Assembly (NCBI GenBank): GCA_025201365.1
Contig: JAIXMF010000002.1
Coordinates: forward strand, 992,001-1,056,000
Direction: 5' to 3'
Length of the DNA stretch: 64,000 nt
Source: Syncephalis plumigaleata
Lineage: Eukaryota; Zoopagomycota; Zoopagomycetes; Zoopagales; Piptocephalidaceae
Shown in pieces: positions 55,993-62,047 of the stretch. Both the position numbers and the translations under genes were made by a program. The notes under the pieces were generated by a model that had not been told where the DNA came from, did no database searches, and saw only the letters and a list, made by a program, of their open reading frames with translations. How positions within the stretch are numbered: the stretch's first letter is position 1; each line of letters begins with the position of its first letter.

Positions 55993-57073
55993 CGTGCACG
56001 CATAAGTTTATAAATAAATATACATTCTACGATCAACTAGACATCTAGTAATATCTGGAACAAGGACATGCTTACTATTTGTCCTATTAGAACTTGACGA
56101 GTCATATAAATATAGTGCTAATTATGACATGAAGTACTTGCTCGTTTTATTTAGCAAGACACTATAACGTCACACAAGACGAGCAAGGGTTTAATAATGG
56201 AAAACAATAGAGCAATAATGCATGTGATGACATTAAGGGTTTAAGACATCGTACGGAAAAGCACGGGGATGACAAACCGCAAAAAAGAAAATAGATTGTC
56301 ATGTCCACATTCACGAACGAGCTACCCTTATCAACAAGAGGTGACGCAATAACATTGTATCATCTCGTGTATCATCTACCCGCCCACACTGTTTGAAGGA
56401 TCAACCGGCATTGCTATCGCCTCGTATAATGGCGAGGTTAGAATAGGCCCCATCGCGGATGACTTGCCCGTGTATCCGAACCAAGCACGTGTAATGGCAG
56501 ATGGAATTTATACAGCATTCCAAAAAATGCTACTGGATGCTCGTGATGGGCCTGAGTCGTTGTAATAAGCAAAGCAATGTATTCGAGCATTATTTCATTC
56601 GTATATTTATAATAATAATACAGCTGTTGTTGTGTCAATATACAAAAGTAAATGCCATCATCTGGGTTTATTTAACATGGTAGCACATGATGGCCGGTTA
56701 ATATTCGGCTATATGTTTGTTGGAATGATAACACCAGTACCGAGGTAGTTCTCATTCAATACAGGAATTTCTTAGGGGAACACAAGGAGAAAGAAAATAA
56801 GTTTTAAAGCCAAAACATCTTCTCCGTTAATCAAGTAAGTAACATCATGGTGGTTACTAGATTGGAAAGCACAATAAATTAGACACACCACTTACATGAG
56901 GACCGTCGTGGTAAGTAAGCTTGCTGTGGCATATGGAAGACGAATGAACGGAGTGATGAAACATTAGCCATTGCTGCAAGCTATTTAAGCATGCGCTGTT
57001 AGATGCATCGCTGCGAGTCGGTATAATTTTCGACATCATACACTTCATTTACATTTTTACGATCGATTAAATC
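55993..57073. other. Gene-poor stretch with an orphan coding-like fragment
   Basis: Plus-strand codons at about 56358-56566 have coding-like composition (IASYNGEVRIGPIADDLPVY, YTAFQKMLLDA, ending at a TAA). They are weakly reminiscent of C-terminal segments of acyltransferases but have no start or partner exon. The rest is AT-rich and holds the promoter of the kinase-like gene. No other gene seen. Confidence 0.3.
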
Positions 57074-58427
57074 ATGCTCAAGTCGGCAGCTACGTTTCTT
57101 GTTGCCTTGAAGGCAGTTACTCTTATCCTAAGCGTGCCCACTATACTAGCAAGTCCGGTACGGTCTGAAATCAATCAAGGTATGTATTCAGTCATTATGT
57201 TGTGATGTGCGTATATTAACATAGCAATTGATTAGGTACAATCAATCCCAATATCTTCCTGGGAGCACCGATTACAAGTATACAGCAATATTTTACTCCA
57301 CACAAAGTTACACTTACCAAAACAATCGGAGGCAATAATGATCAAACCGTTGCGCTTGGACATGGAAAATATGGAGATTTACCTGCATTTATAAAATGTG
57401 TGGCTCCTCTACCAACTGGAAAACCAGCATCTGATCGCCAGAAAGAGATAGACAGAGAAAGGGAGGCATTCTCGGTAAGATACTTGTCATTTATTGTATT
57501 CACATACTAATCATGTTTCTTTTTCGCTTTTCTATCTAGATTCTTCAAGAGGCCGATGCTCGACCGGGAAGCAACAATCTAGTTGGCTATACCAATGTTT
57601 CCCGTGCTTATACGCATTTTGCATATGGGAATAATTATTGCTTTGTATACTCGTACGATGGCAATATTGATCTAGCTGAATACCTTCGCAGTATATGGCC
57701 AAACAACATCCCAGCGATATCGTCGGGTAACATCCTATTGGTACGCTCACTCATTAGTGATATCTTAAGTGGACTTATTTACTTGCATAATGCGCATTTG
57801 GTCCATCACGATATCAAGACGCATAACGTTGTTATTTCATTCCCTTATCCCAATACTCCGCAACGACCAAAGGCGACCATTATTGACTTTGACCTTTCAG
57901 AGAGAATACAATATAATGGTAACTCTGTTGTCCCGGCTAGCAACCTCGTAGGAACCATGTCCTATATAGCGCCAGAAGTTTTTGCCCACCATCTAGCTGA
58001 CCCTACGAAAAAAGATGTCTGGGCAGCTGGTATTACACTTTATAAATTATTAACAAAGAGGTATCTAATAAGTGGTAATGATGACAGGGCGCTTGCTATA
58101 AATATCGCGAATACATTTTCCCATGAACTTCCAGAGCAACTTTTCGCTTTTACTGGACCACAATTCCAACAAGCGGAAGTGAGTTCGTTGATCAATGCTC
58201 TCAAAGCTATGCTGGAGACTCACCCTACAAATCGGCCATCCGCCAGAGAGTGCTTAGCTATTCTCAATGGAGCTAATCCACCACCTAGAACGCAACCAAT
58301 CATGCCATCATTAACACCCTCCCAACAAGCAACAATTCCTGGAGGTTCAATGCCTGTGGAATTTGTAGAATCATCGTCAGGAAGGCCTACATCCGTTTTC
58401 TCTAATAAAGTATGGATACACCCATAG
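57074..58427 (+). CDS. Protein-kinase-like protein with an N-terminal signal peptide
   Basis: Three exons, 57074-57179, 57236-57474 and 57540-58427, sum to 1233 nt and 410 residues. Residues 1-25 are hydrophobic (MLKSAATFLVALKAVTLILS) and look like a signal peptide. The kinase fold is clear: a glycine-loop-like GHGKYGDLPAFIKCV with a Lys, the C-helix region REAFSILQEAD, the catalytic loop HHDIKTHNVV (204-211, D206 kept, HRD changed to HHD) and IIDFDLSE (DFG changed to DFD, 231-233). GTMSYIAPEV (APE 259-261) and DVWAAGITLYKLL follow, then NRPSARECL and a Pro/Ser-rich tail. The key Lys, both Asp and the APE Glu are present, so activity is possible. ER or secretory location is inferred. No close family known to me. 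Confidence 0.8.
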
Positions 58428-60267: not shown

Positions 60268-62047
60268 TTATTCTTTGAACCACCATGACACAGATACGCC
60301 TACTGCAACCACTGCCAGAGTAGTTCCTACTGGCCACCATGACCATGAAGATGTTGTCGTTGATTGTCGTTTCTTTGTACGTATACTACGCTTTGTTGTC
60401 TTTATGGATCGTTTATGTTTGCTGTTCTTTACTAGACGTGATGGTGATGATGACGACGATGATGATGGTGGTGACATGCTTGTGTCTTGTATAATTCGTA
60501 TACTAGCAATTACATACCCAAAAGTACGGCTAATACTGTCCCAGTAGTAGCGTTGCCAGTTCTCGCGTGTTGTGTCCTCTTGTCCCACGGGAACACCACG
60601 CTGGGTTAGTCGTAGTTCGGTGGACGAGCTACCTTGTGCCAAGGTAATGGCCACATTCGATTGATGATCTAAACGATAATAAATAAATACATACGCGTAA
60701 TTAATATGAATACTCATCGTATTGATTAGATACGCTATCACTTACTGGCTGGCCAAGAGGAGAATCGCCAACTCATGACTATTTTCTCATTTGGTACCTA
60801 TTCGTTGATGATATCAATTAGTGTATCATTGCTGAATACAATACAATACACTTACCAGTTCAACGATGGTACCCGTAATATTACCATCAAATAGACGGAA
60901 ATCACTACCGATCTCTGGTCGAATCACTACGGGACCACGAGTCCATGCTTGCACTTTATCCTGATTCAGTAGAACATCGTAGACATCATGAGCACTGGCT
61001 ACGAATTCAACACTGAGCTTGATGTCGGTAGTGGAGAAATGAGTCGATGATGCCGATGATTTATCGCCTGTCGTCTCATTGGTGCTGTCCGCTGATCCTG
61101 CATTAGAGCCTTTACCGGATGACTTGCCAGCTGAGCCTGACGTGCTAGTCGAGAGACCCAGTTCCTCCGGTGGAATGTACACATCCTTTGAATGGGCTAG
61201 TGTTATTCATACATACACATACATATATCCATAGATTTAATTAATCAACTAATTATGTATGTATACATATGCATGAATGCATTCTACGTACCATCAATAA
61301 GATCCTGCGAGAATCGACCAAGCTTCTTGCGTAATTCGGCAGTAAGCGATTTACGAATTAACTGCCTGACTGCGTCCATTTCACGTGTTTCCGACTCGAT
61401 GGTAATGTCGAACTAGTCAAATGCCATTGCATATCTTCATTAGATCATCTACTACTCGGTTATTGACGTATACTTACAACATACTCATCTTCCTCGGTAT
61501 CATGCATCATCTCAGGAATACTGATATTTCCCTTGACAATGGTACCATCGGCCGTGTTACCTTATGATATCCATCAGTATTGGTCAGTATAGATTAAATA
61601 AAGTTTACTAATTTATCTTTGGAGAACTCACCTTCAACACCGAGCTTCATCGCCAGATCGTACAGTGTAATCACCTTGCCCTTACGCTGGTTAATGTCTA
61701 CATCGCCTGTACAATCGAGTACCGAGGTTATCTTGGCTGTGGCACCAGATGATGTATCGGATACCGTAGTGCCTGGCAACTGCTCGGAAAAGTAGGTTTT
61801 AGCCCAGGCATAGCAGTTCTTTTCCGTCCTATTATCCATCGGCGACAACGAGTGAGGCATCAGTACAGTTGATATACACTTGTTGAACCATATGCTACAC
61901 ACACTACCACTTACCAATGCCTATATAATATTCAACAATGGAATAAAAACAAGTAAACGAGTGATCGTGTTATTACTCATATTCTTCTAGATTACCACTG
62001 ACAACTTACCAGTTATTGACGTTTTTCCAGTTGGCCATATTCGCCAT
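60268..62047 (-). CDS. AHA1: Hsp90 activator Aha1 with a C-terminal membrane segment
   Basis: Start MANMANWKNVNNW, then a 6-nt exon (GCATTG at 61915-61920) giving HW, then TEKNCYAWAKTYFSEQLPG. The N-terminal domain binds the Hsp90 middle domain (DINQRKGKVITLYDLAMKLG, IVKGNISIPEM, FDITIESETREMDAVRQLIR). A Ser/Gly linker leads to the AHSA1 C-terminal domain: LSVEFVASAHDVYDVLLNQ, AWTRGPVVIRPEIGSDFRLF, GTIVELVPNEKIVMSWRFSS and then QRGVPVGQEDTTRENWQRYY. After this comes a Ser-rich, then Lys/Arg-rich stretch and a hydrophobic end (WWPVGTTLAVVAVGVSVSWW) before the final residues FKE. This is a tail-anchor-like addition I do not know from yeast Aha1. The domains stimulate Hsp90 ATPase. Location at a membrane is inferred. 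Confidence 0.88.
61915..61920 (-). other. 6-nt microexon of AHA1
   Basis: On the minus strand: acceptor TATATAG, exon GCATTG, donor GTAAGTGG. It encodes the HW of the family motif NNWHWTEKN, in correct phase with both neighbours (TG|G and TG|G), and is flanked by introns of 89 and 86 nt. Confidence 0.75.

Follow-up and report, generated by a model that had tools for sequence, protein, structure and literature searches.

How fungi parasitise other fungi without harming themselves is, to our knowledge, poorly known. A gene of Syncephalis plumigaleata (Zoopagomycota) raises the question of whether such a fungus sends protein kinases out of its own cytosol. The gene lies on the forward strand at positions 57074-58427 of the window, the whole stretch of 64,000 nucleotides that we analysed, on contig C112 of the 32.6-Mb genome. 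Titles in the reference list of PMC6784888 present Syncephalis as a genus of ubiquitous, obligate mycoparasites, and the accessible part of that paper states that no orthologous gene marks mycoparasitism across the taxa studied. The first-pass annotation had described a three-exon gene for a 410-residue kinase-like protein with a hydrophobic N-terminus and DFD in place of DFG. Our gene model and a Pfam match confirm this description, and the product, with its kinase fold, is identical to a GenBank protein of S. plumigaleata. The parts of the gene, all on the forward strand, are as follows.

56560..57073, +: upstream flank, presumed promoter and 5' UTR; conserved among copies, the nearest 300 bp with 93.7% mean identity
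57074..57179, +: exon 1, with the start codon, the hydrophobic leader and the first linker residues; conserved in 14 copies
57074-57154, +: hydrophobic leader, residues 1-27, within exon 1
57180..57235, +: intron 1, 56 bp, GTATGT...TTAG; 55-56 bp in 14/14 copies, mean identity 95.8% (12 copies)
57236..57474, +: exon 2, with the linker and the N-lobe from beta-1 to alpha-C, including a degenerate Gly-loop; mean identity 83.1%
57394..57399, +: Lys89 of beta-3, directly before the conserved Cys90 (AFIKC), from comparison of copies and relatives
57475..57539, +: intron 2, 65 bp, GTAAGA...CTAG; mean identity 94.5%, flanking exons about 83%
57540..58427, +: exon 3, with beta-4/5, the C-lobe, a low-confidence tail and the stop codon TAG; mean identity 82.5%
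57639..57641, +: Cys149 at the start of beta-5 (CFVYSYDG), from comparison of copies and relatives
57804..57827, +: catalytic loop HHDIKTHN, residues 204-211; position 210 is variable
57885..57893, +: DFD replacing DFG, residues 231-233, from comparison of copies and relatives
57948..57977, +: end of the activation segment with the P+1 loop and APE, residues 252-261; residues 255 and 256 rank with the most variable

Further along the window, at 60826-61920 on the reverse strand, are exons of a gene for an Aha1-type Hsp90 co-chaperone. Pfam Aha1_N matches at 61597-61920, and AHSA1 matches at 60829-61206 below its cut-off.

By its fold, the Syncephalis family is a family of protein kinases. In the kinase-family profile search that the first-pass annotation had proposed, PF00069 matched residues 131-354 of the 410-residue product significantly (101.4 bits, cut-off 31.7). 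The AlphaFold2 model extends beyond this span and has a complete N-lobe, with beta-1 predicted at residues 60-68 and beta-2 at 74-81. Its two-lobed fold matches solved kinases. Among NCBIfam profiles, the only matches were to bacterial and archaeal kinase models, far under their cut-offs.

The N-terminal leader is the feature that sets the question. In the copies of this genome, residues 1-27 are more hydrophobic than any stretch past residue 45. On sequence evidence the start codon is secure, because an in-frame TAA stands two codons upstream of the ATG in 14/14 copies and because P0007 from S. fuscata and P0008 and P0009 from S. pseudoplumigaleata start at the matching place, with similar leaders. 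A transcript starting downstream of the leader, one of the two cases against secretion that had been raised beforehand, is thus opposed by the upstream stop and by the recurrence of the leader in two other species. As to the other case, homologs without a leader, six database protein models (P0005, P0010, P0011, P0015, P0016 and P0033) lack one. P0015 is copy k, whose DNA does contain the leader exon, so that this database model is too short. In the GenBank models P0003, P0004 and P0006, upstream sequence is spliced into the leader after its third residue; the corresponding DNA (copies i, l and m) has the same ATG as the other copies. An open frame at 56353-56565 (+), upstream of the kinase gene, encodes the peptide with which models P0003 and P0006 begin, joined there to the leader. 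This frame has no Pfam match at E 0.01 or at E 5, and a WS/DGAT origin, proposed on a resemblance, was dropped on that result.

Such a leader would direct the proteins into the secretory pathway. The leaders of P0008 and P0009 have textbook ends, with ALTASA before IP or AP, and the hydrophobicity of the P0008 leader (2.00) is lower than that of a stretch in its body (2.17). In the first 31 residues of the protein there are two lysines, one arginine and no acidic residue, one of the lysines being inside the hydrophobic stretch. A strict signal-peptide rule that we wrote accepted the leader in 0/14 copies, also missed that of a more distant gene (C13) and found one in 59/252 one-kilobase segments of the window. 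The charge pattern and the failure of this rule would suit a mitochondrial presequence or a non-cleaved anchor, a reading that is highly improbable given the textbook ends in P0008 and P0009 and a pair of conserved cysteines that fit an oxidising compartment. The leader is nearly constant among copies (entropy 0.16 bits). Its dN/dS is 0.93; the likeness is therefore due to the low divergence of the 5' block, with no measurable purifying selection behind it.

We searched the genome with the protein and found 14 copies with the leader exon. All share one plan: a 106-bp exon 1, a 55-56-bp intron 1, a 239-bp exon 2 and a 64-65-bp intron 2. The exception is copy l, where exon 2 measures 281 bp through a 42-bp in-frame tandem duplication in the Gly-loop region (L040 7742-8022). 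For intron 2, the copy models required a GTAA donor and a CTAG, CCAG or TTAG acceptor; the splicing so modelled agrees with that of GenBank for copies a, e, i and l. Twelve of the 14 copies are open, with 355-428 residues, while copy m stops at 145 and copy n is cut at 308. Four copies lie on small contigs whose flanks match those of loci on C112: 97.2% over 3.9 kb for a/b, 96.7% over 7.5 kb for e/h, 94.7% and 97.1% for j/f, 93.1% and 94.5% for d/n. This suggests that each of the four represents the alternate haplotype of a locus on C112; a mixed culture or segmental duplication may be the cause instead. Nine placed loci, together with copy g on contig C84, where placing was unsuccessful, make about ten loci. 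Copy k is present on C112 (L039 4850-6161) and absent from the matching contig C358 (L035), which suggests a copy-number difference within one genome, one haplotype missing the gene.

Three further copies (o, p and q) are diverged and have internal stops. Diverged members with internal stops are located at C371:14.9k (L037), C112:959k (L040) and C112:989k (L034), where they begin about 2.7 kb from the leader-bearing copies h, m and e; those at C371:14.9k and C112:989k are on matching haplotypes. Protein searches, some of which scored only the best candidates by shared words, about 8000, and may have passed over distant members, found close relatives only in Syncephalis and in two metagenome proteins (P0005 and P0016). 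The earlier suggestion of a kinase family expanded in this lineage is supported. The expectation of several paralogs with a signal peptide and a conserved DFD holds at the level of sequence, with the leader exon in 14 copies and DFD in 13 of the 13 that reach it.

Are these proteins built to work as kinases? DFD is present in all 13 copies long enough to include it, and also in relatives from two other Syncephalis species. In 12/12 open copies, K89, E110, D206, K208, N211, D231, F232, D233, E261, D274 and R347 are invariant. We compared the N-lobes of 9 of 15 Syncephalis-type proteins (P0003, P0006, P0010, P0011, P0015 and P0016 were left out) with 64 of 76 non-Syncephalis kinases that had the common HxD type, enough upstream sequence and distinct sequences, these unrelated kinases being distant matches of the family and not a random sample. 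DFD occurs in 9/9 Syncephalis-type proteins against 1/64 others, or 2/71 in a less filtered comparison. The alpha-C glutamate is kept in 9/9. The Gly-loop GxGxxG is degenerate, its first, second and third glycines being found in 7/9, 2/9 and 0/9 Syncephalis-type proteins against 53/64, 60/64 and 39/64 other kinases. For the HRD arginine, counts were taken from a comparison with 74 kinases in which the column is visible, because the 64-kinase filter admitted just six residues (R, C, A, Q, G, K) within HxD. This arginine is absent from 9/9 Syncephalis-type proteins and present in 64/74 unrelated kinases, of which 0/74 have His or Asn at that column as the family does. The metagenomic relative P0005 has Asn in place of the catalytic-loop Lys.

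Cys90 and Cys149 occur together in 9/9 Syncephalis-type proteins and in 0/62 other kinases with an aligned Lys, which have the two singly in 1 and 3 cases. By PKA geometry, the two presumably stand opposite each other on neighbouring strands. This pairing suggests an N-lobe disulfide, Cys90-Cys149.

Loss of the HRD arginine, the degenerate Gly-loop (second glycine 2/9, third 0/9) and DFD itself could also belong to secreted pseudokinases, that is to ATP-binding or structural folds whose variable face binds partners. As cited in the accessible part of PMC6442604, the DFD pseudokinase RNase L binds Mg-ATP. We consider this reading unlikely: six catalytic residues are invariant in 12/12 copies, variation falls on substrate-contact positions, unlike in unrelated kinases, and the excerpted text of PMC3326643 describes Mnk1/2 as kinases with DFD.

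The distribution of that variation was followed along the protein. Entropy peaks in the beta-2/beta-3 and beta-3/alpha-C loops, in the stretch after APE, from alpha-F to alpha-G, in the P+1 loop and in the Gly-loop. Seven sites, anchored on the KxxN, GTxxYxAPE and DxWxxG motifs, were equated with what we take to be the PKA substrate-specificity residues E127, E170, L198, P202, E203, L205 and E230. Their mean entropy is 1.87 bits against 0.62 for the domain, a value reached by 1/100000 random sets, or by 3/100000 when one copy per locus is used; for the six C-lobe sites against the C-lobe alone the counts are 0/100000 and 4/100000, all of these being optimistic because the set of sites was fixed after the list of variable positions was known. 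D159, one of the seven, is constant. In a control set of 67 unrelated kinases, the six C-lobe sites rank 4, 15, 49, 56, 60 and 87 of 116 columns, and 15763/100000 random sets reach their mean. The sites are not special there; therefore their variability is a property of the Syncephalis family and not of kinases generally. Since a non-catalytic scaffold is unlikely to vary just at substrate sites while its catalytic residues stay fixed, an active enzyme is favoured. The first-pass annotation had left the choice between active kinase and pseudokinase undecided; fixed catalytic residues and variable substrate sites would tip it towards activity.

The copies differ unevenly along their length. Pooled over 66 pairs of the 12 open copies, dN/dS is 0.81. 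It is 1.24 for residues 28-60, 1.04 for 61-115, 0.55 for 116-180, 0.47 for 181-260, 0.87 for 261-365 and 1.44 for the tail. In exon 2, copies a and b are separated by 27 nonsynonymous and 4 synonymous changes; their identity is 87% in this exon but about 97% across the 3.9 kb that they share. Copies j and f differ in residues 261-365 by 34.2 nonsynonymous and 5.8 synonymous changes. No nonsynonymous excess is seen for e/h (dN/dS 0.39 overall) or for d/n (0.94 in exon 2, 0.56-0.58 in exon 3). Copies share longer runs of identity than chance would give: the observed run statistic, which uneven divergence along the gene may raise too, is reached in 0/300, 1/500 and 0/500 permutations. Exchange of blocks between copies is supported by this test, not proved. 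Mean identity is 94-96% for the introns and the 300 bp upstream, against 83% for exons 2 and 3; exonic synonymous sites differ by 18.5% overall, more than introns do. Introns more conserved than exons are a pattern known from some venom and immune gene families. Selection on coding blocks combined with conversion could yield introns more alike than exons, and constraint on very short introns could contribute.

Allelic-looking copies whose exon 2 or 3 has diverged much further than the flanks, as in a and b, and the presence of copy k in one haplotype only might recall self/non-self recognition between Syncephalis strains, with selection keeping alleles divergent. Genes for host interaction would show the same pattern, and copies that are both dispersed and in tandem on two large contigs are unlike a single allorecognition locus. 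Recognition between strains therefore appears very unlikely.

Does the family stand apart in its own genome? Eight weaker genome matches, of many, were read, and they share some of the family's marks. C13 (P0032) has a single exon, a hydrophobic start, DFD and exactly two cysteines, at the family's two positions. Leader-like segments lie upstream of C124 (two tandem genes), C2 (two), C100 (one) and C223 (two); they come from upstream sequence without gene models, in some regions with more than one candidate. The strict rule finds a leader in 7/8 of these regions, C13 failing, against the 59/252 segments of the window. The beta-5 cysteine is present in 8/8 genes where the strand was found (C13, P0033, C124 first and second, C2 first and second, C100 and C223:1784), and the beta-3 cysteine in 5/5 (C13, P0033, C124 first and second, and C100). 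A scan of the other four genes for the beta-3 motif gave no match, so that there the exon was missed or the cysteine is absent. DFD is found in 6/8 genome genes, a count biased because C2 second and C223:706 were chosen for overlapping a DFD motif; it is lost in C124 second and C223:1784. A wider set of divergent kinases (L042, L043, L045, L054, L055 and L056), with leader-like segments upstream and mostly with the beta-5 cysteine and DFD, is thus dispersed over the genome. Counting DFD kinases by DNA pattern was abandoned as too noisy on its own, with 150 matches against 79 in a reversed control. C1:1482794 was set aside as a DFD kinase, its IIDFD being in an insertion of an ordinary kinase with its own DFG.

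Taken together, these observations lead us to a reading that we hold with roughly even confidence: the genes would encode Syncephalis-specific, secreted and probably active kinases that diversify their choice of substrates, perhaps at the interface with the host. The leader would take the kinase into the ER, where a Cys90-Cys149 disulfide between beta-3 and beta-5 would stiffen the N-lobe. By analogy with RNase L and WNG1, the extra acid of DFD would probably join the metal site and hold Mg-ATP despite the degenerate Gly-loop. The enzyme would probably be an active kinase, its catalytic residues being fixed while the substrate-reading ones differ between copies. Duplication, block exchange and probably selection for change may then produce new substrate preferences. 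Judging from lifestyle and evolution, the likeliest place of use would be beyond the cytosol of the parasite, where it meets its fungal host. If this is true, an exported and diversifying kinase family would offer a concrete molecule to test where fungus meets fungus, and the twelve open copies, constant in their catalytic residues and varied in those that contact the substrate, a natural series for the evolution of kinase specificity.

Leader, paired cysteines and conserved catalytic residues would also be at home in lumenal or cell-surface kinases that act on the fungus's own secreted or wall proteins, with no use against a host. Fam20C is the model for such phosphorylation of a cell's own secreted proteins. 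WNG1, too, targets the parasite's own secreted proteins, as reported in the available sections of PMC6442604. Change in copy number, mosaic copies and variable substrate sites better fit a changing outside partner, and we regard a role confined to the fungus's own proteins as somewhat unlikely. Our preferred reading remains that of secreted kinases diversifying their substrates, perhaps at the host interface. In the part of the literature that was searched, we found no paper on kinases of Syncephalis or on a family of secreted kinases in fungi; as far as this search reaches, an expanded family of leader-bearing kinases is undescribed in a mycoparasite.

How does the family compare with known kinases? 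Mnk1/2 and RNase L share its DFD in place of DFG. These animal proteins reside in the cytosol or nucleus and lack the leader that the Syncephalis family has. In crystals, Mnk kinases adopt a DFD-out form, according to the accessible parts of PMC3326643 and PMC1821047. For RNase L, the excerpted text of PMC6442604 cites that both acids of DFD bind Mg.

Like the Syncephalis family, the FunK1 kinases (PF17667) are fungus-specific and expanded, and the Pfam cut-off is passed: the 410-residue product scores 26.6 bits against 24.1, over residues 187-264 only. Three family loci pass and some copies fall below. FunK1 kinases have Ser at position 8 of subdomain VIB, where the Syncephalis family has Lys208 in 12/12 copies, and those of Paracoccidioides are not predicted to be secreted, both according to the available part of PMC3203195. 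We rejected membership of FunK1, as PF00069 scores far better (101.4 vs 26.6 bits) and Lys208 is not the Ser of FunK1.

The closest working parallels would be the ROPK and WNG kinases of Toxoplasma. ROPKs, as the excerpted text of PMC3682881 describes them, are lineage-specific, expanded, secreted parasite kinases with polymorphic members and a family-specific disulfide; in the Syncephalis family secretion and disulfide are predicted. The ROPK disulfide, present in most but not all ROPKs, lies in the C-lobe with a WC motif at the end of alpha-F (PMC3682881, same sections). P0001 has no WC; its cysteines are at 90, 149 and 353, none near alpha-F, and the candidate pair is in the N-lobe. WNG kinases (ROP35/WNG1 and BPK1) are secreted parasite kinases in which an acid replaces the glycine of DFG, comparable with DFD in 13/13 copies here, where secretion is predicted. 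According to the available sections of PMC6442604, they have no Gly-loop and lack beta-1 altogether, WNG1 is active, and changing the acid severely lowers its activity. The Syncephalis model has predicted beta-1 and beta-2 strands, and its acid is Asp instead of the Glu of WNG1. The family thus fails the tested structural marks of both ROPK and WNG. No sequence link with WNG was seen, and the likeness is likely convergent. If it holds, this would be a second case, in a distant lineage, of a missing or degenerate Gly-loop going with an acid in DFG. A more far-reaching convergence is possible, although we would not call it probable: a mycoparasite that, like Toxoplasma with ROPK and WNG but independently, has come to export an arsenal of active kinases. 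Their ATP site would be remodelled by the degenerate Gly-loop together with DFD, their N-lobe braced by a disulfide and their substrate groove hypervariable, and gene conversion and selection would have diversified them to act on the proteins of the fungal hosts.
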